This document shows positions 26,713-57,005 of a stretch of DNA of 64,000 bases, in pieces; position 1 is the first letter of the stretch; each line of letters begins with the position of its first letter. The translations under genes and the position numbers were made by a program. The DNA is from Arthrobacter sp. MMS18-M83. Its GTDB lineage: Bacteria; Actinomycetota; Actinomycetes; Actinomycetales; Micrococcaceae. Location: assembly GCF_026683955.1 (NCBI RefSeq), contig NZ_CP113343.1, forward strand, positions 930,001 to 994,000, read 5' to 3'. The notes under the pieces were generated by a model. The model was not told the origin of the DNA. It did not search any database and saw only the letters and a list, made by a program, of their open reading frames with translations.

Positions 26713-27092
26713 TTGGGAAGGTACTTCCCGGACCTTGTGGCGGCGGCCGCCGCGCAGATCCCTCCGGGGTGTGTGGTCGATGGTGAGGTGGTCATCTGGT
26801 CCGGGGGTCGGCTGGATTTCGATGCGCTGCAGCGGCGCCTTGTCACGTCAAAGGCGGCACTGCCTGGGCTGGTGCGGGAGCTCCCGGCCTCGTTCGTGGC
26901 GTTCGATGTGCTTGCCGTTGCGGGGCATGACACAAGGATGGCGCCGTTGTCGGAGCGCCGCGCGCTGCTCGAGGAGCTGGCACGGGACTGGTCTGCCCCG
27001 TTGAACCTCTCCCCCGTGACCAGGGACCGGGACGTGGCGGTGACCTGGTTCGAAGAGATGACGGCCGCCGGCATTGAAGGGCTCGTGGTCAA
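26713..27092 (+). pseudogene. ATP-dependent DNA ligase, middle fragment (left of the transposon)
   Basis: About 126 codons: RYFPDLVAAAAAQIPPG, motif III in VVDGEVVIW, motif IIIa in SFVAFDVLAV, and motif IV beginning GIEGLVV at the transposon junction. The upstream part with the catalytic lysine (KYDG-type motif I) is missing because the SSB fragment abuts it. Removing 27,093-57,005 (the transposon plus one core copy) joins GLVV directly to KGASQPYAGGKRQWLKVK, restoring a standard ligase motif. LigC/LigD-type ligase. Confidence 0.85.
27087..27092. repeat. Left copy of 6-bp core (target site) GGTCAA
   Basis: Directly repeated at 57,000-57,005. It lies exactly at the boundary between ligase coding sequence and the left terminal inverted repeat. 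Tn554-family recombination uses a 6-bp core in this way. Confidence 0.85.
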
Positions 27093-27117
27093 TTCCCTGT
27101 TGAATGAGCGTGTTGAT
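27093..27117. repeat. Left terminal inverted repeat
   Basis: TTCCCTGT, six variable bases, AGCGTGTTGAT. The right end read on the reverse strand is TTCCCTGT, seven variable bases, AGCGTGTTGAT. Both begin directly at the GGTCAA core. Confidence 0.88.
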
Positions 27118-27140
27118 GCTGTTCAAGAGGGGTGTGTTTG

Positions 27141-28679
27141 GTGCAAGGATGGCGTGTTTTCTGGGTTCCGGCGGGGCGCTCAGTCGAGTCGAAACGATTG
27201 TCGGTCGTGGGTGGTTGGGATGGCCTGGCGGAGGACGAGGAGCGGGCCGGTGTCCGTCCGGGGACGCCGATCCTGCTTTCGCCGGACTGCCAGATCGACG
27301 GAAGGTTGGCCCGGTTTCTGGTCCGTTCCTCCTTCGCCAGGCTGGAGCAGGAGACGAAGCGGAATTATGCGACGGACTACTGCGTTTTCTTCGACTTCCT
27401 GTGGCGTCGAGACAAGGACTGGGACGGGGCCACCCCCGACGATCTGTGGGATTTCGAGGACTGGCGCACGAGGTCGCTGAGCAACCCGCGGCGGGTCGGC
27501 GGTGCCCGTTGGAATCGGGGCCTTGCGGCTTTGGGCCGCCTGTACTCGTGGGCGGTCAAGCAGGGTTACGTGTCCGCGAGCCCGGTTGAAACGCGGGAGG
27601 CGGTCGGCCGGCACGGGCAAGCGCTGGAGGTGCCGGCCGCCCGGGCGAAGAATGCGAGGTCCAGCGATGTGCGCTGGCTGACGCCAAGGATGTTCCGGCG
27701 TTGGGTGGATGTCGGCTTGCGCGGATTCTCCGCCGACGGTGTGCCGGGCGCGGCATGGGGCGGGCGGATGGAGGACCGGAATTCGGCTTTCGCCGATCTG
27801 TTGTTCTCATCGGGTCTGCGGCTGACCGAGGCCGCTTCGCTTCTCAGTCTCGAGGTCCCACAGTCCGAGGTGGGAGACCGCAGGTACTATTCGGGCCGGC
27901 TGGCTCCGGTGGTGACGAAGTCGAAGCGGGCCCGCACGTTCTATGTGGCGGCACCGGTGGTGGGCGAGATCGAGGCGTACTCCGATGCGGGCAGGGCCCG
28001 GGTGATCCGCCGTGCGCAGCGGCAGGGCCGGTATGACGTGTTGCCACGAATGCGTCTGGTGACGTCGGTCTCCGGGCGCCGAATGAAGGTCCTTCACTGG
28101 CGCGATCGTGACGGAATGCTTGGCGAGACGGCCCTGGCCCGGGCAAGTGTCGAGGAGCGGGCAATTCTTTTCACTGAGGGGCCCGAGGGTCCGGAACCGC
28201 TTTGGCTGTGGCTGAACGAATCCGGTCTGCCGTTTCGGCCAGCGTCCTGGGAGGGCGTGTTCCGGACGGCCACGGAACGGTGCGCGATGGCCCTCTCGGG
28301 AGAAAAGGGTGATGCTCCGTTCTGCACGCCGCATATGTGTCGGCATTCGTTCGCGCTCTTTATGCTGGTCGCTCTCCACCACGCGACGGATGTCCGGCTT
28401 GGCCTGACACCGAAGGAGCGCCGCGATTTCCGCCTCCTCTACGGGGATCCGTGGCGGATGGTCCAGGACCTTCTCGGGCACGCGGACGTCGAAACCACCC
28501 GCAGGATCTATCTGGCCCCGGTCTCCGATCTCCAGCTGCACTCGCTGATCTCCTCGCCTGTGCCTGGTTCGGGGGACCCGGAGGGCGGGGCAGCCGATGA
28601 TGTCTCCTGGATTCTGACACGGCTCGCAGCCGAGACAGGCACGATCCAGGACCTGGTTGAAGACGAGGCGGTCCTGTGA
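27141..28679 (+). CDS. Tyrosine recombinase 1 of the Tn554-like element (TnpA-type)
   Basis: About 512 residues. GTG 27,141 sits eight bases after AAGAGGGG; GTG 27,132 is an alternative. An N-terminal SAM-like core-binding domain (ARLEQETKRNYATDYCVFFD) precedes the catalytic domain, which keeps the full set: Arg in SSGLRLTEAASLL, HxxR in PHMCRHSFAL, and GH...Y in LLGHADVETTRRIYL. It is therefore the likely strand-exchange enzyme. The stop overlaps the next start (GTGA). Confidence 0.85.
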   Translation: MQGWRVFWVPAGRSVESKRLSVVGGWDGLAEDEERAGVRPGTPILLSPDCQIDGRLARFLVRSSFARLEQETKRNYATDYCVFFDFLWRRDKDWDGATPDDLWDFEDWRTRSLSNPRRVGGARWNRGLAALGRLYSWAVKQGYVSASPVETREAVGRHGQALEVPAARAKNARSSDVRWLTPRMFRRWVDVGLRGFSADGVPGAAWGGRMEDRNSAFADLLFSSGLRLTEAASLLSLEVPQSEVGDRRYYSGRLAPVVTKSKRARTFYVAAPVVGEIEAYSDAGRARVIRRAQRQGRYDVLPRMRLVTSVSGRRMKVLHWRDRDGMLGETALARASVEERAILFTEGPEGPEPLWLWLNESGLPFRPASWEGVFRTATERCAMALSGEKGDAPFCTPHMCRHSFALFMLVALHHATDVRLGLTPKERRDFRLLYGDPWRMVQDLLGHADVETTRRIYLAPVSDLQLHSLISSPVPGSGDPEGGAADDVSWILTRLAAETGTIQDLVEDEAVL

Positions 28680-30409
28680 GCGGCCGAGGACAGCGGGCGG
28701 TCCTGCCGCCGGAGCCGCACCACCGGCCGGTTCCGCGGCCCCATGATGGGCTGAAGGTCGAGCACCGCGACAGGAAAGGGCGCGTGGGCACGTTCAACTT
28801 CGAGGAACTCCCGGTCAGCGTGGAGCTCCAGCGCGCCTTCGCGCGGTGGTTCGCCGAGAAGTGCGCTCCGGGCGGCGGCTGGGACTCGCTCCCGTCCAGC
28901 AAAGCCATGTGGTTCCGTCTTACCGCATTTGGGCGCTTTTGCGCCGAACAGGACAGTCCGCCCCAGCTCCTCGCCGACATCACCCCGGCATTGTGGAACA
29001 GGTGGCGGATGCGGCGGCCGGAAGGCATCCACGGCTACTCACAGGTGACCTCACTGGGCGGCTTTTTCAGGAGACACGGCGAGCTGAGCGAGCCTACGAG
29101 GTCCGCGATGGCCCGACGGCTTCCCCTGGTCACGTCCACGGTACGGGCATTGGCCCCGGATGAATTCGAGGAGGTGCGCGCAGCGGCCCGGAGGATGTTC
29201 CGTTCCGCCCACCTGAGAATCCGGACCAACACAGAACATCTAAAACGATGGCGTGAGGGATCCTTCGAGCATCAAAGCCGCGATTGGCTCCTCGGAGAGG
29301 CCCTGGACTCGCTTGCCAGCACCGGATATGTCCCCTACATGCTTCGTGAAAGCGGGACCAAACGTACTATTCACCGTTATGTCGCAGTCCTCGGCGGGGA
29401 GGCCCCGCAGTACACGTGGATGCGTCTCTTCCTGACGCGGTCCGAAGCATACGCGCTGGCCGTGCTACTCGTGGTGGAGTTCGGGCTTAACGCGACCGTG
29501 GTGTCGGAAATGCGCGCCCCTCGGGCCTTGCAGGACGGCGGATCCGGGGGCTTCCCGATCTATCGGTTGGAGTTGGAGAAGCGGAGGCGGGGAGCCGGCC
29601 GTCACTTCGAGACCCGGAATGTCCCGGACACCGGTGCCGACACGCCAGGGCGGCTGATCTCGAAGGCTCTCGAGGCGACTTCCCATGCGCGTGCCTTTGT
29701 CGCCGCCGCCGACAGCACCCTGGACTTCCTGCTCATCTGGCGGAACGCCCAGCCGGGACCCAGGAACGTGTCCCCCGTGGCGCCGTTCGGGATCGGCCTG
29801 ACGAAGAACGCGGCCGACTCCTGGCTCCGGGAAACCGGCCTGACCGGCGCTCCCCTGCAAAGACTGCGGAAAACAGTCAATGTGCTGCACCGAAGGGAAC
29901 CCGGCCAGAACAGCCAGGACACCCACGACGCGGTCTATGTCCTTCCCGAACCCCAGGTGCAGCAGGCATCCGTCCCGATCATCGCCGAGGGCGCCGAGAG
30001 CGCCCTCGCACATGCCCGGCACACCGTCCTGCGCGCCCAGCTTGCCGACACGACCAGCCCGGGTTCCCTGGAGACCCCCACCGCCGCCTGCTGCGGCTAC
30101 AAGAACAGTCCGTTCAGCGCCCAGGGAACGGGATGTCGGGCCTCGTTCCTGATGTGCACGGCGTGCCCGAACGCGCGGATACACCCGAAGCACCACCCGC
30201 GCCTGGCATACCTGTACCTCGCGCTGGCCAGCCTGCGTTCGGTCCTGGATGACGAGATCTGGGCAGCGGACTGGGTAAACCCGTTCATGCGTCTGGAGGA
30301 CCTCAAGCGCAGGCTCGGTGACCAGGTCTGGGCGACCGCTCTCGCCGGCGTGAGCTCCACAGACAGAACAACCATCGGCAGTCTTCTGGAAGGACAGTAC
30401 GACCTATGA
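28676..30409 (+). CDS. Tyrosine recombinase-like protein 2 of the element (divergent catalytic site)
   Basis: 577 residues, GTG overlapping the previous stop. The fold order resembles a tyrosine recombinase (an N-terminal core-binding region, then VLLVVEFGLNATVVSEM where family members have a GLR-type Arg). The Arg is replaced here and the C-terminal HxxR/Tyr pattern is not clear (QRLRKTVNVLHRREP). A zinc-knuckle-like patch (PTAACCGYKNSPF, CRASFLMCTACPNARIHPKH) lies near residues 480-520. It may act as an accessory subunit, as TnpB-type partners do. Confidence 0.75.
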   Translation: MSGRGQRAVLPPEPHHRPVPRPHDGLKVEHRDRKGRVGTFNFEELPVSVELQRAFARWFAEKCAPGGGWDSLPSSKAMWFRLTAFGRFCAEQDSPPQLLADITPALWNRWRMRRPEGIHGYSQVTSLGGFFRRHGELSEPTRSAMARRLPLVTSTVRALAPDEFEEVRAAARRMFRSAHLRIRTNTEHLKRWREGSFEHQSRDWLLGEALDSLASTGYVPYMLRESGTKRTIHRYVAVLGGEAPQYTWMRLFLTRSEAYALAVLLVVEFGLNATVVSEMRAPRALQDGGSGGFPIYRLELEKRRRGAGRHFETRNVPDTGADTPGRLISKALEATSHARAFVAAADSTLDFLLIWRNAQPGPRNVSPVAPFGIGLTKNAADSWLRETGLTGAPLQRLRKTVNVLHRREPGQNSQDTHDAVYVLPEPQVQQASVPIIAEGAESALAHARHTVLRAQLADTTSPGSLETPTAACCGYKNSPFSAQGTGCRASFLMCTACPNARIHPKHHPRLAYLYLALASLRSVLDDEIWAADWVNPFMRLEDLKRRLGDQVWATALAGVSSTDRTTIGSLLEGQYDL

Positions 30410-32449
30410 CCCTCGCAACCGAAGAGACGGCGTCGCGCCCGGGACCGAATGCCTACGCCATCCTGCCCGGCCTGGTCGAGGAGGGCTTCTCGGGCCCGGT
30501 CCCCCTGTTCGGGGACCCGTCTTGGAGCCTGGACGCCCTGGCGCACGGCCCCGGCGTGTCACGCGCGACGATCCACTGGAAGACTGTGCCCGCGGCATTC
30601 AGGGAGGAACTGCGGCACCTGACATGGCTGCTGATCAACACTTCGCTGCCCGCCAGCTTCCTGATCGGCAGACACCCCCGGTGGCGGACCACCGTGTCAC
30701 CCCGGCACGTGTATCCCACCGTGGCGATATGGAGGGCATTCTGCCAATGGCTGGAAGAGAGGGGAGGCCCATCCCTCCGTGCCTGCACTCCGGCAGATCT
30801 GCAGGCCTACGCCCTCCACCTTGCAACAGACCGGGCAATGACGCGTAACCCCGCCCAGAAAGTCCTCGCAGCCCTGACCCGGCTCTGGGCACTGGACTCC
30901 TCGAACCCCTTCCCGGTCGGCTTCTGCGAACCGCCATGGCTGACAGAGGGCGCCGATGATTTCCTTCCGGCCGGCTCCTCCGCGGGCGAGAACTCAACAG
31001 AACCGATCACCCCGGAAACCATGGGACCACTGCTGATCTGGGCCCTGCGCGTGGTCGACGACTTCGCCGAAGACATCCTCACCGCCGTCCAACGTAAAGA
31101 AGAAATACTCGCCAGAAGCAAGCAGAACTCGGCCACTCCAGAAGGCCAGGCTGCGCTCGAGGACTACTTGGGAGCCCTCATTGCAGCCGGCACATCGCCA
31201 CCGAGCATGGCAGCCGGGAACAAGAGCGGACTCGCCGCGACGTACATCTCCTACGTAACGGGGGCGGCGGTTCATCAGGTCCACCATCAGGTATTCGCAG
31301 GGCGCTGGCGGGAACAGCTCTTGTCCGCCGGTGGTCCCGCTCCCGTCTTCACCGAGATCTCGGGCACGGTCGATGGCCGCGCCTGGAAGGAATTCATTGA
31401 CTACTCCGAGGCGGGGACTCTCAAGACCCATCTGACGACCGCGGCCTACATTGTGGTGTCGTACTTGACGGGAATGCGGCCCCGCGAGCTCCAGGGACTC
31501 GAAAGGGGCTGCTGCCCGGAGCCGGAATCGGGGCGCTACCTGATCTACGGCCGCGTTTACAAGACGGCCATCAACGACGACGGGAACCACGTCCCGCAGG
31601 GAACCCTCCGCGACGTTCCCTGGGTTGCCATCGAACCGGTGGTACGGGCCATCCGCACCCTCGAAAGGATCAACCCCGACGGGTATCTATTCGGAGACCT
31701 GCCCCCCGGCACCATAAACATGCGCATCGAAAAATTCATTACATGGGCGTCGAACCTCGCCAAGAGCCTGGACCGCCCCCACGACAATCCCCGGGGACAA
31801 GTACGGCTCGATCGGGGTCTCGCGGTTCCGCCGGACGCTGGCCTGGCACATCGGCCGCCGCCCCGGCGGACTCGTCGCCCTCGCTGTCCAGTACGGCCAC
31901 CTGCGCACCGCCATCAGTGGCGGCTACGCGTCCCGCAGCCGGAACGGAATGCACGACCTGCTCGACCTGGAAGCGGCTCTCGCCACCGCCGACACCCTCG
32001 CCTCGCTCAACGAAGACCTGGGCAACGGCGCAGGCATCTCAGGCCCGGCGGCACGCAGAGCCATCAACGCCGCCCGGCATGCCCCCGAATTCGCAGGCAC
32101 CATCGTCAACGCGAGGCAGGCCCGGGAGCTCCTGGAGAACCCATCGCTGACCGTCTACGAGAACCCGTCCGCGATGCTCATGTGCGTCTACAAACCGGAC
32201 CGCGCCCTCTGCAACCGCCTCACCGAACGCGAAACACCGCGCCTGGACCGCTGCGTCCCCTCCTGCGCGAACATCGCACGAACCGATGACCACGCACACC
32301 TGATGCGACAAGAGGCCGAATCCCTGGAGAACCAGGCTCCGAAGTCCCCCGAGCCCCTCGGACACCGGCTGGAAGCCCGGGCACGGCGGCTGCGTCAGGA
32401 AGCCGACCAACACGACCGTTCCCGCATCGTTATCGAGGAGCGACAATGA
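30406..32449 (+). pseudogene. Tyrosine recombinase 3 of the element, frameshifted
   Basis: The ATG overlaps the previous stop (ATGA). Catalytic Arg in SYLTGMRPRELQGLE near residue 365. Near 31,790 (the CCCCGGGG run) the frame breaks; the +1 frame continues KYGSIGVSRFRRTLAWHIGR, VQYGHLRTAISGGYASRS and a Cys-bearing C-terminal region to the TGA at 32,447-32,449. That end overlaps the DUF6262 ATG, so the native gene extends there. As written, the product loses HxxR, GH and Tyr. A sequencing error, decay, or programmed frameshift are all possible. Confidence 0.75.
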
Positions 32450-32847
32450 GCCCCGCGCACGACGAACGCGCCCGCATCCAGGCGGCCATGGAGCGAATCC
32501 TGGCCGGGAACCCGGAAAGATCCAACGGGGCCCTGACCATCATGGCCCTCGCCGCAGAAGCAGGCGTCCCGCGAAACGCGCTCACCCAGCGGCACGTCGA
32601 CCTGAAGAACCTCTTCTACGAGAAGGTACGGGCTCGCGGCGGGACACCTGACGGCGAACTGCGCCTCCGGCGCGAGACGGCCAGGTTGAAACGGTTGCGG
32701 GAGGACGACAGAAGAGTGATCCAGCAGCTGAAAGCAGACAACGAAACCCTGATAGGGGCACTCCACCTCGCACAACTCCAAAATGAAGAAATCCGACGGC
32801 GACTGGCAGAGTCCGGAAGCACGGTCCATGCCATCGGCAGAGGTTGA
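32446..32847 (+). CDS. DUF6262/TnpC-like accessory protein
   Basis: 133 residues, ATGA overlap with recombinase 3. N-terminal short HTH-like region (GALTIMALAAEAGVPRNALT) and a C-terminal coiled coil (RRETARLKRLREDDRRVIQQ). Proteins of this length and form sit after the tyrosine recombinases in Tn554-type elements, like TnpC. TnpC influences transposition frequency and orientation; a similar role is likely. Confidence 0.8.
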   Translation: MSPAHDERARIQAAMERILAGNPERSNGALTIMALAAEAGVPRNALTQRHVDLKNLFYEKVRARGGTPDGELRLRRETARLKRLREDDRRVIQQLKADNETLIGALHLAQLQNEEIRRRLAESGSTVHAIGRG

Positions 32848-32957: not shown

Positions 32958-34403
32958 TTACGGGTTGCCGCCCGGGTGCAGCCCTACCCTGCGGCGGCGC
33001 AAGAAGGCCAATGTCTTTACGGCCAGGCGGGCAGGCCCGGCCGTGGCGCGTTCGCGGACGTCTGCGATGGCTGCGTTCCAGATCCCGTCCGAGTAGGTGG
33101 GGTAGGCGTGGGTGGTGCGGGCAATATCGGCCGTTGTCAGGCCTTTTTGGACGGCCAGTGCCAGTTCGGCCAGGGATTCCCCGGCCCGGGGGCCAACGAT
33201 CGTGCCGCCCAGGATTTTTCCGCCCCTGCCCAGGGTGAGGCTGGTGAACCCGTCGGTGCGCTCGTCAGTGACGGCGCGGTCCACGTGCCGGTGCGTCACC
33301 GTCCGTGTCCTGTGCCGAGGGTGATCCGTCTGGGAGGATCCGACGGCGGCCAGTTCGGGCGAGGTGTAGGTCACCCTGGGCACGACGGGGCTGACGCGCC
33401 GGTTCAGACCCAGGACCGCGTTGGTGGCCGCGGTGCTGGCATGGACCCCGGCGACGTGGGTGAACCGGGGGTTGGCGGTCACGTCCCCCGCGGCCCAGAC
33501 CAGGGGGTTGCTGGTGCGCATCCTCTCATCGGTGAGCACTTGGCCGCGCTCATCCAGATCCACACCGATCCGGTCCAGACCCAGGCCTTCGGTGCGCGGT
33601 ATCCGGCCGGCGGCGAACAGGACGGTCCCGGCCTCGATGGACGTCCCGTCGTCCAGAAACAGACGGTACCCGGCGGTGGTGTCCTCAGCATGTGTCACCG
33701 CAGCTTGTTCCCTGATGTGCACGCCGTCCGCTTCGAGGCTTCGCCGCACGATGGCTACCGCGTCCGCGTCTTCCTTGGGCAGCAGTCGCGAGCGGATGAT
33801 CATCCTCACCTCGGATCCGAGGCGGGCGAAGGCCTGGCTGAGTTCGCAGGCGACCGGGCCGCCGCCGATGACGGTGAGCCTGTCCGGGAGCGTTTCAAGG
33901 TCCCAGATGGTTTCGGAGGTGAGCACCGAAGCCTCCGGCAGGCCGGGGACCGCGGGCCGGGCCGGTGCCGCGCCGACGGCGATCAGCGCCTGCCGGAACC
34001 GGATGGTCCTGCCGCCAATCTCCGCCGTTCCCGGCCCAGTGAAGGCGGCACTGCCGGCGATAACCTCAACCCCTGCCGTTTCCAGGGCGGCAGGAGAGTC
34101 CGCGGGTTCGATGGTTCTGATCGCACGGGCGATCCGCTCCCGCACTCCGGTAAAATCCGCATCATCATCCGTGTCACGATCCGTGGGGTTCCGGGCGGGG
34201 CTGCGGCGGGTTTTGGCCAGTGCCGCCGCGGAGAGGATCGTCTTTGACGGCACGCATCCTGTCCACAGGCAGTCCCCGCCGGTCCGGTCCCGTTCCACCA
34301 GGATGGTGCTCGCGCCGAAACCAGACGCCGTCATGGCTCCGACGATGCCTGCCGTTCCACCGCCGATCACCAGGAAATCGACGAGGCCGTCACTATTTAC
34401 CAT
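32958..34403 (-). CDS. Pyridine nucleotide-disulfide oxidoreductase (mercuric-reductase-like fold)
   Basis: 481 residues. FAD-binding VIGGGTAGIVGAM, redox-active DCLWTGCVPSK near residue 45, NAD(P) motif VIGGGPVACELSQAF, second FAD motif VWAAGDVTANPRF and C-terminal dimerisation part with THAYPTYSDG holding the catalytic His. No C-terminal CC pair, so it is not a typical MerA. The divergent start of the methyltransferase at 34,543 implies a shared promoter region. Substrate unknown. Confidence 0.85.
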   Translation of the reverse strand: MVNSDGLVDFLVIGGGTAGIVGAMTASGFGASTILVERDRTGGDCLWTGCVPSKTILSAAALAKTRRSPARNPTDRDTDDDADFTGVRERIARAIRTIEPADSPAALETAGVEVIAGSAAFTGPGTAEIGGRTIRFRQALIAVGAAPARPAVPGLPEASVLTSETIWDLETLPDRLTVIGGGPVACELSQAFARLGSEVRMIIRSRLLPKEDADAVAIVRRSLEADGVHIREQAAVTHAEDTTAGYRLFLDDGTSIEAGTVLFAAGRIPRTEGLGLDRIGVDLDERGQVLTDERMRTSNPLVWAAGDVTANPRFTHVAGVHASTAATNAVLGLNRRVSPVVPRVTYTSPELAAVGSSQTDHPRHRTRTVTHRHVDRAVTDERTDGFTSLTLGRGGKILGGTIVGPRAGESLAELALAVQKGLTTADIARTTHAYPTYSDGIWNAAIADVRERATAGPARLAVKTLAFLRRRRVGLHPGGNP

Positions 34404-34542
34404 CAGGGCGCTCCTTCACACAGGGTAGGGAATGCAGGGATCTGTCAGGACAGCGTGGAAACCTTATCCTCAGGCGCCAGCGTACCGCTCCGTTCCCCCC
34501 GGGCCGGGCGCGGCCGGCGTCAAGGTCAGGAGAGGAACGAGC

Positions 34543-35217: not shown

Positions 35218-35228
35218 CGGGAGTGGCT

Positions 35229-35621: not shown

Positions 35622-35646
35622 GTACCTCGTCTTCCCATCCTCCGGG

Positions 35647-35666
35647 CCTTCCAGTATAGGAGAAGG
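35647..35666. promoter_or_regulatory. MerR-type operator between merR and merA
   Basis: CCTTC, ten bases, GAAGG within the spacer of the divergent region, resembling dyads in the long spacer of MerR-controlled promoters. It is 25 bases upstream of the MerR start, so it would serve the MerR gene, the merA side, or both. Confidence 0.55.
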
Positions 35667-48911: not shown

Positions 48912-49213
48912 CCGCGCTTTCCTTTCCGGTCCTTGTTGCTCCGCCCGAGGCCTTCGGATTCGGCCGCAGCCCCGGAAACGGTCTGGGTTGCTTCAGTGCG
49001 GGTTCCGCTGGTTTTCCGGGCCCGTAAACGGGCCAGGGCGTGGCGGATTTCCCGGACCACGAACGCCGCCCGCCCGGCAGGTCCGGCATCACAGCCCGGG
49101 AGCCCCTCAACGATCGAACACCCCTCGCCGGCATTCCCGGCCTCAAAGGTGGAGTGCGGTGCCGGCGGGCCCGGAACGCTTGTCCCGTTCATCGTCCTTG
49201 TCTGCTTTGTCAT
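48908..49213 (-). CDS. Small hypothetical protein in permease operon
   Basis: 101 residues from ATG 49,213 (MTKQTRTMNGTSVPGPPAPH), Gly/Ser/Thr-rich with two Cys (GCSIVEGLPGCDAG) and a helix (GRAAFVVREIRHALARLRAR). Its stop overlaps the permease start. First gene after the MerR-type operator at 49,317. Function unknown; cysteines suggest metal binding. Confidence 0.5.
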   Translation of the reverse strand: MTKQTRTMNGTSVPGPPAPHSTFEAGNAGEGCSIVEGLPGCDAGPAGRAAFVVREIRHALARLRARKTSGTRTEATQTVSGAAAESEGLGRSNKDRKGKRG

Positions 49214-49316
49214 GTTCCCTTCCCTCCGGACCTCTTCCGCCCCGCAGTCTTGGCTTTCCCCGCTGACCGGACGAACGCTTGCCGTGGCGGTCGGAATCGT
49301 CCACCCCATCCTAAAA

Positions 49317-49341
49317 CCTTGCCCGGGGGTCAAAGTCAAGG
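49317..49341. promoter_or_regulatory. MerR-type operator 2 (permease operon)
   Basis: CCTTG, fifteen bases, CAAGG. On the reverse strand it gives TTGACT as a -35 and TAGGAT as a -10 about 19-20 bases apart, the lengthened spacer of MerR promoters. It differs at only three positions from operator 1 at 52,141. It overlaps the end of the P-type ATPase gene. Confidence 0.75.
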
Positions 49342-51804
49342 GGTTTTTGGTTCTCGGCCCTTCCGTGGGCCTCCCCTTCGGGCTTTGACGCTGCGGATGG
49401 CGTCGAAGAGCAGGGCGGGCCGGGTGCCGATGGAGTTCAGGAAGATTGCCGTGACGGAGGCGGCCATCGCGATCATGGCCCAGACCGGGTAGACCAGGCC
49501 CGTTGCGGCCAACGGGACGCCGATGCCGTTGAAGAGGAAGGCCAGGGCCACGTTGGCCCGGGTGCGGCGGTAGGAGGAGTCGCTGATCCGGCGGGCTTCC
49601 ATCACCCCGGCGACGTCTTCGCGCAGGAGGACGATGTCCGCGGATTCGACGGCGATGTCCGTGCCGGCTCCCGCGGCGATGCCGACGTCGGCCTGCATCA
49701 GGGCCGGTGCGTCGTTGATCCCGTCACCGACCATCGCGACCCGGGTACCTCCTGCCTGCAGTTCGCGCACGATCACGGCTTTGCCCTCGGGCCGTACCCC
49801 GGCGCGCACGTCGCTGATTCCGGTCTGTTCGGCTACGCGGCGGGCGGCTCGTTCGTTGTCCCCGGTGACCAGGACCGGTTCCAGGCCCGCGGCGCGCATC
49901 GAAGCAACTGCCGCGGCGGCGTCGGGACGGAGCCGGTCGGCCAGGGCGATCACCCCGACGGCACGCCCTTCCCGGGCAATGCCGATGACGGTGTTCCCTG
50001 CCGCTTCCCATTGATCGATCCGGTGCTCCAGGCCCGACACGTCTACGCCTTCACCGGTCAGGAAGGCCGGTGACCCGGCCAGGACCACGGCGCCGCCTAT
50101 CACGGCCCGGACCCCGGAGCCGGTGACCGATTCGAACTCCGCGGCAGGGGCCGGTGTGATGCCCCTGTCCCGGGCAACGTTGACAATGGCGCGGCCCAGG
50201 GGGTGTTCGGAGTGCTGTTCGCCCGCCGCGGCCAGCGCGAGCAGATCATCGGCGGTGCCGGTGGCCGGTTCGACGGCGGTGACGACGGGTTTGCCTTCGG
50301 TGAGGGTCCCGGTCTTGTCCAGCACGATGGTGCGGACCTGGCGGAAGGTCTGGAACGCTTCCCCGGTGCGCATCACGATCCCGTTATCCGCGGCGGTCCC
50401 GGCGCCGCGGACGATCGCCAGCGGTGCGGCGATGCCCACCGCGCAGGGGTAACCCATGACCAGCACGCTCAGGGCCGCGAACACGGCCCGGCGCACATCC
50501 GGTTCCCCGGTCAGGGCCCAGCTGCCAGCCAGCCAACCCACCAAGGCAAGGGCGGAGATGGCCAGGATCGCCGGGGTGTAGACACGCAGGATCCTGTCGA
50601 CTAGATGCAGGATCCCGGGCTTGAGGGCGCGGGCGTCCTCAACGTGGCGGATGACCTGGGCCAGGAACCCTTCGGCCCCCGTCGCGGTGACCTGAACCAA
50701 CAGGGCCCCGGTGGCATTAATAGAACCGCCGACCACCTGATCTCCGGGACCGACGTCGGCCGGGACCGGTTCACCGGTAACCAGGGACACATCCACAGCT
50801 GAGACCCCGTCCCGCACCTGCCCGTCCAGCGGGATCCGTTCCCCGGGGCGGACCCGGACCAGGTCCCCGACGTGGACTTCTTCGACCGGGACCTCGGACT
50901 CGGTCCCGTCACCGGCGAGCAGGCGGGCCAGGTCCGGCTGGAGATCCAGCAGTTTGCGCACCGACTGACTCGACCGGGTCTTGACCAGCAGCGAGAGCCA
51001 CTCGGAGAAGATGTGGTAATTCATGATCAGCACGGTCACCGCGAAAAACGCGGCGGTCGGGTAATCCGGCAACACACCGGTCAGACCGACCAGTCCGCCG
51101 GCGATCCCGGCGAACGCGCCGATCTCCAGCAGCACGTGCTGGTTCAGGATGCCCCGCCGCCCGGACTGGTAGGCCATCCGCAGGATGTGCGGGCCGATCA
51201 CGAACACCGCGGAAGCCGCCAGCACCCCGGCGGCGAAGCTGATCACCGGCTCCGCCAGCACCCCTGTTGCCCGCAGGGCCAGGGCCGCGACCCCCGGGGC
51301 GGCGACGACGGCGGCGCCGGCCAGGGCCCGGCCCCTGCCCGAGGGGCGCAGCAGCGCGTAGGAGAGCGGGACCATCAGTGCCACGACCGTGGCCGGGACC
51401 AGGACCGAGAGCACACCGGTCACGGCCGCTATCAGCCCGATCGCGGTCAAGCTTGCTGCCACCGCGGCCAGCAGCCGGAGGCCTTCCCGGACCAGGGCTG
51501 CTTCCTCTTCCTCGAAGGGGCGCAGCTTGCGCGGGTCGTAGAGTTCGTACCCGATGTCGCGCAAGGTGCCCAGGATCTGTTCCGGGCCCACCAGCGCCGG
51601 GTCGTAGTCGACCAGAGCCTGCTCGTGGGTCAGGGACACCGCGACCGTGCCGACCCCCTCCATCCGGCCCAAAGCTTTCTCGATCGTTCCCGTGCACAGC
51701 GAGCAGTGCAGACCCGCGATCCGGGCCCGGATCCGCTCATGACCGGGCTCAGCGCCCGGCTCCGAAGCCCATAACTGTGGGCTGTCCTTCGTCGCGGTGC
51801 TCAT
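49336..51804 (-). CDS. Heavy-metal P1B-type ATPase
   Basis: 822 residues; ATG 51,804 overlaps the chaperone stop (TGATG). N-terminal HMA domain with GLHCSLCTGTIEKALG (CxxC near residue 36). Eight membrane helices; ion site MGYPCAVGIAAPLA, Tyr-Pro-Cys instead of the usual Cys-Pro-Cys. Phosphorylation site DKTGTLTEG, EHPLGRAI and hinge GDGINDAPAL are intact. Exports monovalent soft metal, probably copper, though the unusual YPC leaves other metals possible. Directly coupled to a CopZ-like gene under operator 1. Confidence 0.93.
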   Translation of the reverse strand: MSTATKDSPQLWASEPGAEPGHERIRARIAGLHCSLCTGTIEKALGRMEGVGTVAVSLTHEQALVDYDPALVGPEQILGTLRDIGYELYDPRKLRPFEEEEAALVREGLRLLAAVAASLTAIGLIAAVTGVLSVLVPATVVALMVPLSYALLRPSGRGRALAGAAVVAAPGVAALALRATGVLAEPVISFAAGVLAASAVFVIGPHILRMAYQSGRRGILNQHVLLEIGAFAGIAGGLVGLTGVLPDYPTAAFFAVTVLIMNYHIFSEWLSLLVKTRSSQSVRKLLDLQPDLARLLAGDGTESEVPVEEVHVGDLVRVRPGERIPLDGQVRDGVSAVDVSLVTGEPVPADVGPGDQVVGGSINATGALLVQVTATGAEGFLAQVIRHVEDARALKPGILHLVDRILRVYTPAILAISALALVGWLAGSWALTGEPDVRRAVFAALSVLVMGYPCAVGIAAPLAIVRGAGTAADNGIVMRTGEAFQTFRQVRTIVLDKTGTLTEGKPVVTAVEPATGTADDLLALAAAGEQHSEHPLGRAIVNVARDRGITPAPAAEFESVTGSGVRAVIGGAVVLAGSPAFLTGEGVDVSGLEHRIDQWEAAGNTVIGIAREGRAVGVIALADRLRPDAAAAVASMRAAGLEPVLVTGDNERAARRVAEQTGISDVRAGVRPEGKAVIVRELQAGGTRVAMVGDGINDAPALMQADVGIAAGAGTDIAVESADIVLLREDVAGVMEARRISDSSYRRTRANVALAFLFNGIGVPLAATGLVYPVWAMIAMAASVTAIFLNSIGTRPALLFDAIRSVKARRGGPRKGREPKTP

Positions 51805-52085
51805 CACAACTCCTCTCCGGGGCCCGTGTCCGTGCCGGTTTCCGCGTCCGTCACTGTGTAACCGGCCGCAGCGATCTTCGCCGCCAACGTCTCCGGTTCC
51901 ACTCCCGGGCCGACGCGGACCCGGACCCGACCCGTGGTGTGATCGGCCGTGGCTTCCCGCACCCCCTCCACCCGGCGCAGCGTGTTGCCGATCCGGTGCT
52001 CGCACCCGGTGCACGACATGCCCTCCACCTGCAAAGTGATGACCGCCGGCCCCGGGTTCCATGTGCTCTCACTGTTGGTGCCCAT
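51804..52085 (-). CDS. CopZ-like HMA metallochaperone
   Basis: 93 residues; ATG 52,085 after GGAGAGACAGAC. Single HMA fold: ITLQVEGMSCTGCEHRIGNT (CxxC near residue 26), LRRVEGVREATADHTTGRV, and a final strand. Ends in an acidic tail. Delivers cytosolic soft metal to the coupled ATPase. Confidence 0.9.
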   Translation of the reverse strand: MGTNSESTWNPGPAVITLQVEGMSCTGCEHRIGNTLRRVEGVREATADHTTGRVRVRVGPGVEPETLAAKIAAAGYTVTDAETGTDTGPGEEL

Positions 52086-52140
52086 GTCTGTCTCTCCTGT
52101 GCCACGAGGGCTTGTTCCCTGTCGTGCAACCATGCTAAAA

Positions 52141-52165
52141 CCTTGACCGAGGGGTAAAGTCAAGG
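52141..52165. promoter_or_regulatory. MerR-type operator 1 (CopZ-ATPase operon)
   Basis: CCTTGAC, eleven bases, GTCAAGG, an almost perfect dyad. On the reverse strand TTGACT (-35) and TAGCAT (-10) flank it with 19-20 bases between. It lies between the divergent chaperone and MerR genes, so it may serve both. Nearly identical to the operator at 49,317. Confidence 0.8.
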
Positions 52166-52217
52166 GGTAGCGAAACCTGGCCGGGAACCCGGTGGGCATG
52201 GGAGGAAACAATCGAAA

Positions 52218-52640
52218 ATGAAGGTAGGAGAAGCGGCAGAAGCCGCCGGGGTAACCCCGAAAGCCGTAAGGCTCTGGGAATCAAAAGGTCTGCTGCCCCC
52301 GGCCGGAAGAACCGCCGCCGGATACAGGATCTTCACCGACGAAGACGTGCAGATCCTGCGGTTCATCCGCCAGGCCAAATCCCTGGACCTGACCCTGGAC
52401 GAAATCGGTGACGTGCTCGACCTCCAGCGCGACGGCGCCGTGACCTGCGGCCGCGTCACCGCACTGCTCGATGCCCACATCGAACGCCTCGACCGGACCA
52501 TGACCGAGCTGCGCCGGCTACGCACATCTCTGGACCGGGTCCGGCGCACCGCCAGGGAAGGACAGGCCCGCGGGGAAGAGGCAATGATCTGCCGCATCAT
52601 CGAAAGCGTTCCCTTGCCCGAGCCGGCGACAGCCGGCTGA
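52218..52640 (+). CDS. MerR-family metal-responsive regulator 2
   Basis: 140 residues. wHTH (MKVGEAAEAAGVTPKAVRLW, then GYRIFTDEDVQILRFI), coiled linker and sensor Cys in VTCGRVTALL and MICRIIE. Two-Cys pattern of CueR/HMRTR-type sensors. Divergent from the CopZ-ATPase operon with operator 1 between them, so the natural candidate to control it and operator 2. Confidence 0.88.
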   Translation: MKVGEAAEAAGVTPKAVRLWESKGLLPPAGRTAAGYRIFTDEDVQILRFIRQAKSLDLTLDEIGDVLDLQRDGAVTCGRVTALLDAHIERLDRTMTELRRLRTSLDRVRRTAREGQARGEEAMICRIIESVPLPEPATAG

Positions 52641-52836
52641 CAGACATCCCCGGCGCCAACCCTCCGGCGGCGCCGACGCCCCGCAGCATGGGAGACAGGG
52701 CACCGTGGCGAGTCGCCCCCGGACCTCGGATGCGGGCCTCACCGCCGCGCCTCGGCCCTCGGTTCTGCAACGCAGATCACAGACCAGCCCCGGTCCGCAG
52801 GCTACGTTTGGCCCAACAGGATGAAGGAGGAACACG

Positions 52837-53208
52837 ATGTCCGCCCCGCACAAGACCTATCAGGCGATCTGGAACGGCACTGTAGTCGCCGAATCGGACC
52901 GGACCGTCGAGATCGAAGGGAACCAGTACTTCCCACCCGGCTCGATCAACCCCGAGTACTTCCGCCCAAGCGGGCACACAAGCGTCTGCTTCTGGAAGGG
53001 GACCGCCAGCTACTACACGCTCGAGGTCGACGGCAGGACCAACCGCGACGCCGCCTGGTACTACCCGGCCCCGAGCCCGACGGCCCGCGAGATCAAAGAC
53101 CACATCGCCTTCTGGAAAGGCGTGCGGGTTCTCGAGACTGGAAAGCCCGAACCCGCAAACGAGACACCGGTCAGGGGCCTCGTGGCCCGGATCCTCGGCC
53201 GAACCTGA
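52837..53208 (+). CDS. DUF427 protein (second copy)
   Basis: 123 residues: VVAESDRTVEIEGNQYFPPG, VCFWKGTASYYTLEVDGR, AAWYYPAPSPTAREIKD. Same family as 45,650-45,991, with a longer C-terminus. Follows the MerR gene and precedes the disulfide oxidoreductase gene in the same direction, about 100 bases apart. Confidence 0.83.
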   Translation: MSAPHKTYQAIWNGTVVAESDRTVEIEGNQYFPPGSINPEYFRPSGHTSVCFWKGTASYYTLEVDGRTNRDAAWYYPAPSPTAREIKDHIAFWKGVRVLETGKPEPANETPVRGLVARILGRT

Positions 53209-53307
53209 GACCGGCCATGACCACCCCGGTCACTTCACGAGAAGCCCCAACCCGAAGACGGCACCCGGAGCGGCCCGTCCGCACAGCACAGGCGAGAGGA
53301 ACTGAAC

Positions 53308-54663
53308 ATGGCAGAAAAAGCTGACGTCATCGTCATCGGCATGGGACCCGGAGGAGAGGCCGCCGCAGCGCAGCTGGCCCAAGCCGGGCTGTCAGTGGTC
53401 GGGATCGAGAAGAACCTGGTCGGCGGGGAATGTCCCTACTACGGCTGCATCCCGACGAAGATGATGGTCCGCGCCGCGGATACTCTCGCCGAAGCACGCC
53501 GGGTCGCATTCTTGGCCGGGACCGCCGACGTCACGGCGGACTTCGGCCCGGTCGCTGAGAGGATCCGGGATGAGGCCACCGACAACTGGGACGACACGGT
53601 CGCCGTCGAACGCTTCGAAAAGGCAGGTGGACGCTTCGTCCGCGGGACCGCCAGGATCGCCGGCCCCAAGACGGTCAGCGTGGACGGGCGCGAATTCGAA
53701 GCCAGCAGGGCGATCGTGGTCAACACCGGAACGGAACCGGCTCTCCCGCCGATCCCCGGTCTTGCCGGCGCTCCGTTCTGGACGAACCGTGACGCCGTCG
53801 CCGCCAAAGAGGCACCCGAATCGCTGATCGTCCTGGGCGGCGGCCCGATCGGGCTCGAACTGGCCCAGGCGTTCGCGCGGTTCGGCACCCGCGTCGAGGT
53901 CCTCGAAGCCCTCGACCGCCTCCTCCCCCTCGAGGAGCCCGAAACCAGCCATCTCGTCGAAGAAGTCCTCACCTCCGAAGGGATCGTAGTCCACACCGGA
54001 ACCGCGGCCGAAACCGTCAGCCACGACGGGGCCCGGTTCACCGTCCAGGCCGGCGGATCCTTACTCACCGCCGAACGGCTGCTGGTCGCCACCGGCCGGC
54101 GCAGCGACCTCGCCGCGCTCGGGCTCGCCTCCATCGGCGTGGACACCAGCGCCCGCACCCTCGACACAGACCCGCAGCTGCGCATCGCCGAGGGCGTCTA
54201 CGCGATCGGCGACATCACCGGGCACGGCGCCTTCACCCACATGTCCATGTACCAGGCCGGGATCGCCGCCCGCCACATCCTCGGCGACACTGCCGCCAAG
54301 GCCGAATACCATGCCGTGCCCCGGGTGACCTTCACTGACCCGGAAGTCGGATCGGTCGGGCTGACCGAGCAGCAGGCCCGGGAAGAGGGCATGACCGTCG
54401 CCACCGGGATCTCGCAGATACCCGACTCGGCCCGCGGCTGGATCCACAAGGCCGGCAACCACGGAATCATCAAGCTCGTCGCCGACACCGACCGGGGCAT
54501 CCTCGTCGGCGCCACCTCAGCCGGCCCCAACGGCGGCGAGGTGCTCTCCATGCTCACCCTCGCCGTCCACGAACGCACATCCCTGAACCGGCTGCGGGAG
54601 ATGATCTACGCCTACCCCACCTTCCACCGCGCCATCGAAGACGCCCTCCGAAAGCTGACATGA
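53308..54663 (+). CDS. FAD-dependent disulfide oxidoreductase (dihydrolipoamide-dehydrogenase-like)
   Basis: 451 residues. VIVIGMGPGGEAAAAQLAQ, redox pair GGECPYYGCIPTKMM near residue 42, VLGGGPIGLELAQAFARFG, VYAIGDITGHGAFTH, and YAYPTFHRAIEDALRK with the catalytic His. No CC tail, so not MerA. Third such enzyme in this transposon after 32,958 and 35,847. Substrate unknown. Confidence 0.85.
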   Translation: MAEKADVIVIGMGPGGEAAAAQLAQAGLSVVGIEKNLVGGECPYYGCIPTKMMVRAADTLAEARRVAFLAGTADVTADFGPVAERIRDEATDNWDDTVAVERFEKAGGRFVRGTARIAGPKTVSVDGREFEASRAIVVNTGTEPALPPIPGLAGAPFWTNRDAVAAKEAPESLIVLGGGPIGLELAQAFARFGTRVEVLEALDRLLPLEEPETSHLVEEVLTSEGIVVHTGTAAETVSHDGARFTVQAGGSLLTAERLLVATGRRSDLAALGLASIGVDTSARTLDTDPQLRIAEGVYAIGDITGHGAFTHMSMYQAGIAARHILGDTAAKAEYHAVPRVTFTDPEVGSVGLTEQQAREEGMTVATGISQIPDSARGWIHKAGNHGIIKLVADTDRGILVGATSAGPNGGEVLSMLTLAVHERTSLNRLREMIYAYPTFHRAIEDALRKLT

Positions 54664-54719
54664 ACAACGAACCCGAGCTCATCGCACAGCGGCACGAGAA
54701 GCGCGAGGACACCCCGTGA
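54660..54719 (+). CDS. 19-residue ORF overlapping both neighbours
   Basis: ATG within the end of the oxidoreductase gene (ATGA), reading MNNEPELIAQRHEKREDTP, and a TGA overlapping the following GTG. Both overlaps suggest an evolved or residual coupled start; the peptide may be nothing more than a linker. Confidence 0.3.
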   Translation: MNNEPELIAQRHEKREDTP

Positions 54720-54868
54720 GCCCGCTCGCCATACCCGCGTACCTGCCCTCGCATACGGTCAACGCGATCAGAATCGGACCGCTGCCCATCCACTTCTACG
54801 CCCTGTGCATTCTCGCCGGCATCGGCGTGGCCATCTGGCTCGCGCCGTCGCGTTCACCCTCGCCATGA
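54716..54868 (+). pseudogene. lgt: Lgt N-terminal fragment
   Basis: Reads MSPLAIPAYLPSHTVNAIRI, then GPLPIHFYALCILAGIGVAI, then loses homology. It is the beginning of a second Lgt, like 37,555-38,442 (PLTIHFYALCIMAGIGLAL). The rest, including the GRWGNWFNNE signature, is deleted. Confidence 0.75.
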
Positions 54869-55034
54869 GGCGCGCCGGCCGGACACTCCCGATCCGCCCC
54901 TACAGTGCCGAAACGCCGGTGTTAGAAGACACAGGGTCCGTGTAGGGCGGCCCGGACCGCCGCCCCGACGCCGGTCCCCGCATCTCGGGATGCGCAGACA
55001 AAGTAACAAGCCTCGGAAAGGAAGGACTCAGACC

Positions 55035-55799
55035 ATGTCGATTCGAATGGAAGACGAGATACGCAAGCTCCGGGAGCAGCTGCGCTACGAACCAACCGCC
55101 AAGAGGATCCGCGCGGAAGCGGCCGGCCGTACCCTCGTGGACTCCCAGCGCGCGGTGCTCGTCTGGGAAGCACACCACGTCATCCCCGTGTACGCGGTAC
55201 CGGAGACTGACATCGCCGCCGAACTGATACCCGTCGAGGGCGCCGGTAAAGATTCGGGATCAGCATTCCGCCGCCACCCCGGCCAGGGGCAAGAGCTCAC
55301 CCTCAGGGCCCACGGACTCGAGCTGCCCGTTGCGGCCTTCAGGCCGTCCGATCCGGACCTATCCAAGTACCTGCTGCTGGACTTCGCTTCCTTCGAAAGG
55401 TGGAGGGAGGACGAGCAGGTCGTCGAAGGCCACCCCCGCGACCCGTTCCACCGCGTCGACGCCCGGGCCAGCTCGCAGGGGATCCGGGTCGAGTTCGACG
55501 GGCAGGTGCTTGCCGAGAGCACCAGTCCGGTGTTGGTTTATGAGACCATGCTGCCCGTGCGCACCTACATCCCGCGCACCGACGTCGACTTCACGCTCCT
55601 GGAGCGCTCAGAACGCCAGAGCATCTGCCCCTACAAGGGCCGCGCCTCTTACTGGTCCGTCCGCGGCGCCGGCGCCCGAGGACGGAACGTGGCCTGGAGC
55701 TACGAGAACGCCCTGCCCGACGCCAGCCAGCTCAAGGACCTGATCGCCTTCTACGACGAGCGCACCGAAATCAACGTGGAAGGCAGCCCGCCGCAGTGA
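55035..55799 (+). CDS. Double-domain DUF427 protein
   Basis: 254 residues; ATG 55,035 after GGAAAGGAAGG. First domain (residues 25-115) is diverged, second (145-250) has the family motifs RVEFDGQVLAESTSPVLVYE, SICPYKGRASYWSVRG and VAWSYENALPDASQL. Third DUF427 gene of the transposon and the only tandem one. Confidence 0.82.
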   Translation: MSIRMEDEIRKLREQLRYEPTAKRIRAEAAGRTLVDSQRAVLVWEAHHVIPVYAVPETDIAAELIPVEGAGKDSGSAFRRHPGQGQELTLRAHGLELPVAAFRPSDPDLSKYLLLDFASFERWREDEQVVEGHPRDPFHRVDARASSQGIRVEFDGQVLAESTSPVLVYETMLPVRTYIPRTDVDFTLLERSERQSICPYKGRASYWSVRGAGARGRNVAWSYENALPDASQLKDLIAFYDERTEINVEGSPPQ

Positions 55800-55878
55800 C
55801 AGACCCCCCGCTGGACATCCTCGCGCGGCCCCGGCCCGTATCACGCGATCCCAGGCCGCAGAGCCATCTGCGCCTGGG

Positions 55879-56910
55879 TTGGCCGGTGCCAGCACAGGTA
55901 GCGGAACCACGGCCCCGCCGGACCCAACGGCCGATGATGTTCCGGTCCCAGACACCGCGGACAATGGAGAACATGGGGATCTGGATGCTCCAGCCAGCCG
56001 GCGGGAGGCCGTCGAGACGTGGCCGTCCCCGGAGGGAACCGGGACCGTCGGCCTCCCGGCCGGACCGATGACCTCGGCCGAAGCACCCCGGCCTGAAACC
56101 GACCTTCCAAGGCCAGCGACACCCGGCCGGTCCAGGCCGCCACGTGCCGCCGGAAGAGCACCGGGTCAAACGGCGGACCGCCTCTGCGTCGAATCCCGCA
56201 GCCGCTCCGCTACCGATGAACTCCTCCGGGGCCTGCGCGACGAGGGCTGGGGAATCACCGCATGGTCGCACTTCCTGGGCAGGGCAACGCTGCGCTCGAT
56301 CCGACAGGCCATCCACCACGCGCCCGCACTCGCCGAGGCAACCGCCCTCCACGCGGGCCTCGCGGTCGCCGCACACCCACGCCATCGTCGCTGGGTGGCC
56401 GCAAGCTGGCTCCTGACAGTCACCCATCTGGGCATGCTCGAGAACCGCCGCACCCTCGGGCCCGCCAACGTCTTGACCCTCATACGCGCAAACCTCCCGG
56501 CGATGGAGGACCGCCTCGGGCCCTCGCTGCCGATGCTGGCACTCGCCACGGACTTCCTGGACGGGCGGATCTCCCGGGCCACAGGCACCGAAACCCCGTT
56601 CGGGCGCTACGCAGACTTCCTGGCCGACGCTGCCCTGTGGAACTGGTACGCCGCCCGGCACGAGCCCAGCCGATGGCTGCGGATCGCGGGCCTTGCCGCG
56701 TGGGTGCTCCCGATCGCCGCAGTGGCCACGTCCAGCTTTGCCGGCGCCAGGATGAAGGACGTCCCGCGTTCACCATGGATCCGGCCCGCCGCAGCTCTGG
56801 AGATCTTACTCGGAGCACGGGCCCTCCAGAGGACCATCCGATCACGGCAGACAGGGCGGCTCGACATCTCTCGCAAGGGAATCGGTATCCGCCCGATCCG
56901 GGCCAAGTAA
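55879..56910 (+). CDS. CDP-alcohol phosphatidyltransferase family protein
   Basis: About 343 residues if the TTG 55,879 is the start; it is unclear where the long Pro/Ala-rich N-terminus begins, and a GTG at 55,796 overlaps the DUF427 stop in another frame. The membrane core holds DFLDGRISRATGTETPFGRY, then ADFLAD, matching D-x2-DG-x2-(A/S)R-x8-G-x3-D-x3-D. Surrounding helices (WLRIAGLAAWVLPIAAVATS) complete the fold. It makes a phosphatidyl headgroup. Right-end cargo gene of the transposon. Confidence 0.75.
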   Translation: MAGASTGSGTTAPPDPTADDVPVPDTADNGEHGDLDAPASRREAVETWPSPEGTGTVGLPAGPMTSAEAPRPETDLPRPATPGRSRPPRAAGRAPGQTADRLCVESRSRSATDELLRGLRDEGWGITAWSHFLGRATLRSIRQAIHHAPALAEATALHAGLAVAAHPRHRRWVAASWLLTVTHLGMLENRRTLGPANVLTLIRANLPAMEDRLGPSLPMLALATDFLDGRISRATGTETPFGRYADFLADAALWNWYAARHEPSRWLRIAGLAAWVLPIAAVATSSFAGARMKDVPRSPWIRPAAALEILLGARALQRTIRSRQTGRLDISRKGIGIRPIRAK

Positions 56911-56973
56911 CCGGCAAGGCGGGTGCGTGGACAGAAGGCTCTTTTTGCCGCGACAAGTCGATCGCCGGCAGGG

Positions 56974-56999
56974 ATCAACACGCTGAACTTGACAGGGAA
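56974..56999. repeat. Right terminal inverted repeat
   Basis: ATCAACACGCT, seven bases, ACAGGGAA, directly followed by the second GGTCAA. It is the complement of the left repeat with one extra base in the variable part. Confidence 0.88.
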
Positions 57000-57005
57000 G
57001 GTCAA
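57000..57005. repeat. Right copy of 6-bp core GGTCAA
   Basis: Matches 27,087-27,092. Ligase coding continues immediately from it (V-K-G-A-S). Confidence 0.85.

Follow-up and report, generated by a model that had tools for sequence, protein, structure and literature searches.

Four-gene recombinase operons and related recombinase modules have been described in several groups of mobile elements. In the SEs, a recombinase, a motif-less protein of recombinase fold, a large recombinase and a small protein (IntA-Tfp-IntB-Srap) are encoded in this order at one end, and the elements have imperfect inverted ends, a 6-bp spacer, few selected targets and variable cargo (PMC10214605). GInts encode a small protein besides three recombinase-like ones, are site-specific, and consist of the operon, a cargo region beginning at about the end of the fourth gene, and a short right end (PMC5385486). 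Tn554 pairs a long with an ordinary tyrosine recombinase, followed by a small third gene, and is also site-specific and carries a hexamer along (PMC3414803). RIT elements comprise three adjacent, overlapping recombinase-like genes between terminal inverted repeats, about 3.5 kb in all, with proteins of 315-410 aa that each keep the catalytic Tyr (PMC3414803, PMC10214605). In SEs the hexamer native to the target lies at attL and the brought-in one at attR, and likewise in Tn554 (PMC10214605); the Tn552-II paper also places the brought-in site at the right end. Here we describe an element of 29,907 bp in the soil strain Arthrobacter sp. MMS18-M83, found in a stretch of 64,000 nucleotides (contig NZ_CP113343.1, positions 930,001 to 994,000; hereafter the window) on the 5.07-Mb chromosome contig C1 of a genome of two contigs. 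The element occupies 27,093-56,999 and interrupts an ATP-dependent DNA ligase gene at motif IV. Together with its relatives it is very probably a site-specific transposon with a four-gene recombinase operon (ORF1-ORF4), which targets ligase motif IV DNA and leaves the native hexamer on the right.

The locus shares with SEs the order of the four core genes, the imperfect inverted ends, the 6-bp spacer, the few selected targets and the variable cargo. This likeness is one of layout and does not extend to any homology established with the Tfp and Srap proteins of SEs. It differs in its actinobacterial host, in the insertion inside conserved codons of a gene, and in the sides of the hexamers, the native one being distal and the foreign one proximal to ORF1, opposite to SEs (PMC10214605). 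The same general build links it to GInts, whereas the protein without the catalytic Arg is third in GInts (GinC) and second here, with ORF3 keeping Arg, His and Tyr. GInts also have imperfect direct repeats of 10-17 nt against only 6 bp comparable at both junctions here, and at ssb they spare the ssb product, while here the gene is split (PMC5385486). The original prediction had called the element Tn554-like. The sequence does support a block mobilised by tyrosine recombinases, but the extra degenerate second gene, which has no counterpart in Tn554, and the foreign hexamer, brought in at the right end in Tn554 and on the opposite side here, set it apart (PMC10214605). That gene, ORF2, lies between ORF1 and ORF3, overlaps both and is conserved, its presence in relatives being by construction, as ORF2 was the query. 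The likeness to RIT elements ends with three overlapping genes and inverted ends: the proteins here measure 515, 577 and 681 aa, and ORF2 is degenerate.

The element splits a ligase gene at motif IV

As listed in Table 1, GGTCAA is present directly outside both ends of the element, whose terminal inverted repeats are imperfect (25 bp left, 26 bp right) and read TTCCCTGT-N6-AGCGTGTTGAT on the plus strand at the left and TTCCCTGT-N7-AGCGTGTTGAT on the minus strand at the right. GGTCAA by itself is frequent in the window (18 matches on the plus strand, 20 on the minus strand), so the hexamer alone proves nothing. The two-part repeat occurred twice, at the element ends only, against a mean of 0.00 in 100 shuffles, and a chance junction was rejected on this ground. 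When 27,093-57,005 was removed, the joined flanks read GIEGLVVKGASQPYAGGKRQWLK in frame and without a stop, and the joined protein matched the Pfam ATP-dependent DNA ligase domain (DNA_ligase_A_M, E 3e-23). These results confirmed the original prediction as to the hexamers, the inverted repeats and the restored ligase motif. The joined ligase is not complete: set against a full-length ligase on contig C2, it lacks some 60 residues at the N-terminus, the lysine motif among them. This second contig of the same genome (39.6 kb; locus L157, G000:C2:18001-28000, G000 being the window's genome) holds that ligase uninterrupted, at 64% identity, and may thus still offer a free target site in the strain. 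No similarity between the element arms and the ligase arms was evident on inspection by eye.

Table 1 Features of the element and of the interrupted ligase gene (positions in the window).
Feature	Position	Strand	Basis or remark
Target ligase, left part, N-terminally truncated, LigC-like, up to ...EGLV	26713..27086	+	Translation, joined reading, Pfam
Left hexamer GGTCAA	27087..27092	+	Foreign one in informative relatives
Left terminal inverted repeat TTCCCTGTTGAATGAGCGTGTTGAT	27093..27117	+	Recognisable in 10/11 loci; inner part only in L015
ORF1, 515-aa tyrosine recombinase, IntA-like	27132..28679	+	Pfam Phage_integrase and Phage_int_SAM_1 above cut-off
ORF2, 577-aa recombinase-fold protein, Tfp/GinC-like	28676..30409	+	Alignment, structure model
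ORF3, large tyrosine recombinase, IntB-like, frame lost ahead of catalytic R..H..Y region	30406..32289	+	
ORF3 3' remainder, out of frame, with H and Y motifs (QYGH...GY)	31838..32449	+	Alignment with relatives
ORF4, 133-aa small protein in Srap/TnpC/GinD position	32446..32847	+	4-bp overlap with ORF3 remainder
Cargo region	32958..56910	mixed	Domain searches
MerA-like reductase	32958-34403	-	
MerA-like reductase	34974-37292	+	
Lgt	37555-38442	-	
Radical SAM protein, TrsS/Tes-like	43543-45348	-	
ArsP/SaoE-like permease	47517-48911	-	
P-type ATPase, heavy-metal	49336-52062	-	
MerA-like reductase	53308-54663	+	
Further cargo: thioredoxin, HAD, OpuAC, AhpD-like, methyltransferases, Crp/Fnr regulator, DUF427, CDP-alcohol transferase			
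Right terminal inverted repeat, outward reading TTCCCTGTCAAGTTCAGCGTGTTGAT	56974..56999	-	Also at right ends of four relatives and in genus scan
Right hexamer GGTCAA	57000..57005	+	Target's native one in informative relatives
Target ligase, right part, (V)KGASQPYAGGKRQWLK... through stop	57006..57447	+	

A four-gene recombinase operon lies at the left end

The four genes ORF1-ORF4 lie on the same strand with 4-bp overlaps. The catalytic motifs R, HxxR and H..Y are present in ORF1. In ORF2, an alignment of 11 sequences showed Asn at the position expected, by motif reading, for the first catalytic Arg, together with a Cys-rich C-terminus; the protein had no Pfam match, and its AlphaFold model (mean pLDDT 65) found Cre as its best match in PDB (prob 0.99, E 0.02). 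ORF3 is intact, with 681 aa, in Arthrobacter pascens, A. celericrescens and Sinomonas, and its catalytic residues are invariant across 8 relatives; the model of the A. pascens protein (mean pLDDT 55) was best matched by Cre variants (prob 0.96, E 0.1). ORF4 homologues of 76-86% identity occur in three close relatives, and the roles of ORF2 and ORF4 are putative ones. The window copy probably cannot move by itself, because its ORF3 is out of frame, and this break may be a sequencing error. A programmed frameshift was not favoured, since the gene runs in one frame throughout in three close relatives.

Close relatives are inserted at the same ligase codon

The collection was scanned with ORF2, which yielded 11 loci; among 99 relatives 3 had a match, and among 395 family genomes 14, most of them distant. 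The left-end pattern was present in 5 of 206 genus genomes and 2 of 394 class genomes, the window's own included. Both ends could be read in five members of a close subfamily, namely the window element, those of A. pascens (11,217 bp), A. celericrescens (19,256 bp) and Sinomonas cellulolyticus (13,033 bp), and a 664-bp remnant without the operon in Arthrobacter G494. In all five, a ligase gene is cut between the second and third bases of the Lys codon in motif IV. The split gene is LigC-like in the window, in Sinomonas cellulolyticus (EGLMA/K, the slash marking the junction) and in G494 (EGLVC/K), and LigB in A. pascens (EGVVI/K) and A. celericrescens (EGVVV/K).

A scan of all 206 genus genomes for the right end, independent of ORF2, gave 9 copies in 8 genomes. 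Eight of the 9 adjoin a ligase motif IV reading, six of them LigC-like and some decayed (G000, G494, G019, G522, G532:C52 and G533) and two LigB (G035 and G454, the genomes of A. pascens and A. celericrescens); half of these eight were new, in G019 (L178), G522 (L174), G532:C52 (L179) and G533 (L176). Apart from the complete copies, then, the genus holds several element fossils, seen as solo right ends at motif IV, some beside decayed ligase frames.

Uninterrupted ligase homologues, which the original prediction had proposed to look for, were common. Motif IV was whole in 29 of the 30 LigB loci fetched, the exception (L135) being the interrupted A. pascens gene, and in 9 of 10 LigC-like loci (about 60-68% identity), where the exception (L086) is that of G019 and holds the right end of an element. 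Eight uninterrupted genes, one of them on the strain's own contig C2, match the window ligase across the junction at 60-68% identity. The LigC-like sites were read with tblastn as a guide; a plain regular expression missed some, and a stricter one read 0 of 24 loci. In a comparison of 20 LigB with 8 LigC-like genes, motif IV was the second most similar non-overlapping stretch of 24 nt (0.623; best 0.662). This likeness may explain how one recombinase set could use both ligase families.

Distant members occupy other genes

The operon is frequent on actinobacterial plasmids: ORF2 matches were found in 73 records, 51 of them over at least 80%, and 20 plasmid loci were fetched out of these 73 records. 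ORF3 relatives were present in alphaproteobacterial plasmids among the matches listed (40 of 243). Distant members, with ORF2 identity of at most 55%, sit in genes other than ligase. One in Kitasatospora interrupts a gene that we take to be comEC, with a motif, DVGQGDA, that we likewise take to be that of ComEC; a Streptomyces albus member does so too, with the left end only. In S. uncialis the target is a nucleoside deoxyribosyltransferase gene (the upstream piece is so annotated, with a Pfam score of 23.1 bits, under the cut-off), and another distant member interrupts a P-loop kinase gene (Pfam AAA_33). The targets in S. alfalfae and S. cyaneofuscatus had no Pfam match, and that in Mycobacterium branderi is presumably an NrdH-type redoxin, judged by its motif. 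On two Streptomyces plasmids (L146 and L149) the element lies in what reads as the ORF2 Cys motif of a second element (FLLCLACP / FLACLACP), apparently a case of parasitism within the family. Many distant and plasmid loci gave no readable target, and for several distant elements right ends were sought and not found. Among the plasmid loci, L144, L150 and L154-L156 had no credible left end and that of L148 was weak.

The proposal that motif IV DNA is the attachment site of the family thus held for the close subfamily (5/5, and 8/9 right ends) and not for the distant members. Homologues at unrelated DNA without GGTCAA, which the original prediction had named as counter-evidence, were found among the members of at most 55% ORF2 identity and at two single ends (in G477 and G532:C44, see below); no complete close relative was of this kind.

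The Nocardioides plasmid pNOCA01, which holds an ORF2 relative of 27.5% identity (H32), appears in Table 2 of PMC3414803, so some of the elements listed there may be members of the family described here. About 14-19 kb to the right of the window there is another operon of this type, distantly related (about 29-36% identity) and with its ORF2 split (L003:7960-13088; G000:C1:1007960-1013088).

The native hexamer lies on the right in informative elements

The left and right hexamers are unequal in 4 of the 5 close elements. Read left then right, they are GGTCAA and GGTCAA in the window, CATCAA and CGTGAA in A. pascens, GGTCAA and GGTGAA in A. celericrescens, GGCGAA and GGCCAA in Sinomonas, and CTGCAA and CGTCAA in G494. 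GGTCAA as a fixed 6-bp core, which had been predicted, was rejected because of this variation; the search for the same junctions in other genomes, which it had proposed, gave such ends at ligase genes but no constant GGTCAA.

Uninterrupted LigB genes carry GGTGAA in 19 of 29 cases and GGTCAA in 2 of 29, and their changed codon is Val in 28/29 and Ile in 0/29, while the 9 uninterrupted LigC-like genes have no Cys at the changed codon. Since Ile and Cys are absent there from LigB and LigC-like genes respectively, the right hexamer is, on this comparison, the native one in A. pascens and G494. It is very likely native in A. celericrescens too, whose closest relative (L107, 92% in DNA) has GGTGAA. 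The right hexamer of the Kitasatospora element restores DVGQGDA, and a metallo-beta-lactamase domain was found. For S. alfalfae, EG is the reading of the right hexamer and also that of 4 of 6 relatives (E comes first in 6/6); VI, which the left one would encode, occurs in 0/6. The native hexamer was therefore on the right and the foreign one on the left in 5/5 informative cases among 10 complete elements, as judged from the genes of relatives rather than from parent strains. Equal hexamers or residues make Sinomonas, S. uncialis and Streptomyces sp. NBC_00466 uninformative as well as the window; S. cyaneofuscatus counts among the 10 and is outside the informative 5. CATCAA, foreign in the A. 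pascens LigB gene, is native in 2 of 9 LigC-like and 0 of 29 LigB genes, so the element may have arrived from a LigC-like site.

Mechanism and alternative explanations

In general working the element would be of one type with SEs, GInts and Tn554, the operon at the left end driving it. The recombinases would form a circle by joining the inverted ends with a 6-bp spacer between them, and this circle would insert into the motif IV DNA of ATP-dependent ligases; insertions are seen at motif IV in two families, LigB and LigC-like. Spacer and target hexamer would need no match, the insertion keeping the target's hexamer on the right and leaving a foreign one on the left, and anything between ORF4 and the right end would travel as cargo. 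The ends, targets, hexamers, gene content and modular build are read directly from sequence, whereas circle formation, the strand bias and movement itself are inferred.

Two described classes could claim the element. It might be a true SE that has spread to actinobacteria with the strand bias of that class, native left and brought-in right, since the gene order, the comparable sizes, the overlapping genes, the inverted ends with a 6-bp spacer and the variable cargo agree (PMC10214605); but the hexamer sides are opposite in 5/5 informative elements, that paper reports no Tfp/Srap relatives outside Gammaproteobacteria, and we regard this origin as unlikely. A Tn554-family transposon in the narrow sense appears somewhat less likely still. 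The large recombinase with a small protein, the target specificity and the 6-bp footprint would suit it, and Tn554-related pairs are known in actinobacteria (PMC3414803), whereas the second gene is without counterpart in Tn554 (PMC10214605) and the foreign hexamer takes the opposite side; that no staphylococcal record was among the ORF3 plasmid matches listed (40 of 243) is weak evidence in the same direction. Among the titles and abstract openings listed from open-licence papers, none described elements of this kind that target a ligase gene, and none SE-type elements in actinobacteria, although Tn554-related recombinase pairs from there are in print. Common descent of the ligase insertions, by one event passed on by inheritance or carried along when the ligase region underwent homologous recombination, is very improbable as an account of the whole. 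At the DNA level the LigB flanks of A. pascens and those of A. celericrescens both share 92-94% identity with one uninterrupted gene, L107, so these two insertions could be one event followed by exchange of cargo. As the general cause, a single insertion was rejected in view of the two ligase families, which share about 29-42% identity in partial matches, and of the hexamers that differ between elements; most ligase genes fetched elsewhere in the genus are also uninterrupted.

For a transposon homing on motif IV, several observations count on the other side. The window itself, with GGTCAA on both sides, is uninformative for the hexamer rule, and a single event might account for both LigB insertions. 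None of the four new right ends had a left end by the left-end pattern, and the G019 contig has no operon, so these would be remnants or copies split between contigs. One right end (G532:C44, L175) adjoins DNA without a ligase reading, and a 40-bp solo left end in G477 (L073:2040) stands beside hairpin-like sequence with no ligase reading seen and no right end found when sought; both may be remnants or mark a different target. Relatives were found through ORF2 or the end patterns, so members without these stay unseen. Neither a circle nor transposition nor an empty site in the same strain was seen, the structure models are of low confidence, and ORF4 had no Pfam match above cut-off and thus no family.

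We tentatively suggest, at somewhat less than even confidence, that a separate class of four-gene recombinase transposons is widespread in actinobacteria, with subfamilies homing on near-invariant motif DNA, a strand bias mirroring that of SEs and Tn554, and a left hexamer that is a fossil of the previous home. If so, the motifs homed on would be ligase motif IV, DVGQGDA of ComEC, TTNVEFG of the deoxyribosyltransferase, VIDATN of the P-loop kinase, and the Cys motif in ORF2 of a rival element. Such homing would resemble that of inteins and homing introns, except that the target gene gets split. The insertions at motif IV already illustrate how a gene-splitting transposon can keep a dependable target across hosts, and in more than one gene family, through DNA held constant by protein function. 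From the left hexamer it may be possible to read, in one genome alone, where an element was inserted before, and hexamer sides opposite to those of SEs offer a direct test of how strand bias arises in such transposons.

Unrelated cargo is carried by one recombinase module

The original prediction had put the gene content at about 30; ORF calls gave about 25 genes, some 20 of them cargo. By its predicted domains the cargo of the window is a mercury/organometal detoxification set (Table 1), in which one MerA-like reductase exceeds the cut-off for MerA in NCBIfam. Alignment between the four full elements is confined to the first 5,750-5,800 bp or so (77-90% identity, to about the end of ORF4) and a short right end, and G494 aligns with them over 201 bp. 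No DNA match was found by blastn between the window cargo and that of the 3 other full elements, which comprises a metabolic cluster in A. celericrescens, an RHS-repeat protein and a STAS protein in A. pascens, and two transposases in Sinomonas. One recombinase module is thus seen with unrelated cargo in Arthrobacter and Sinomonas, with metal detoxification here.

Between 39797 and 52062, the NCBIfam families matched at scores under their cut-offs were TrsS, SaoE, a DVU_1556-type methyltransferase and a YciW-related (seleno)protein, so this part may be a version of a selenoprotein-linked organometal system; nothing relevant turned up in the SAO literature. The P-type ATPase gene is flanked by two copies of a 39-nt repeat, at 49306-49344 and 52130-52168, which share 87% identity; the repeat has a palindrome-like core, ACCTTG...CAAGG, and is possibly a binding site for a regulator.

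Surroundings of the split ligase

Near 26,700-26,725 the reading of the truncated ligase meets an ssb-like gene of the opposite strand. This label comes from reading the translation, a 95-aa piece without Pfam match. The ssb-like C-terminal part (minus strand, 26390-26725) adjoins the N-truncated plus-strand ligase (26700-27086), pointing to a rearrangement earlier or later than the insertion. The right flank (59004-62279) encodes a ParB_N protein and an IS110-type transposase, and together with the ssb-like gene and the accessory ligase it looks like plasmid-derived DNA within the chromosome.

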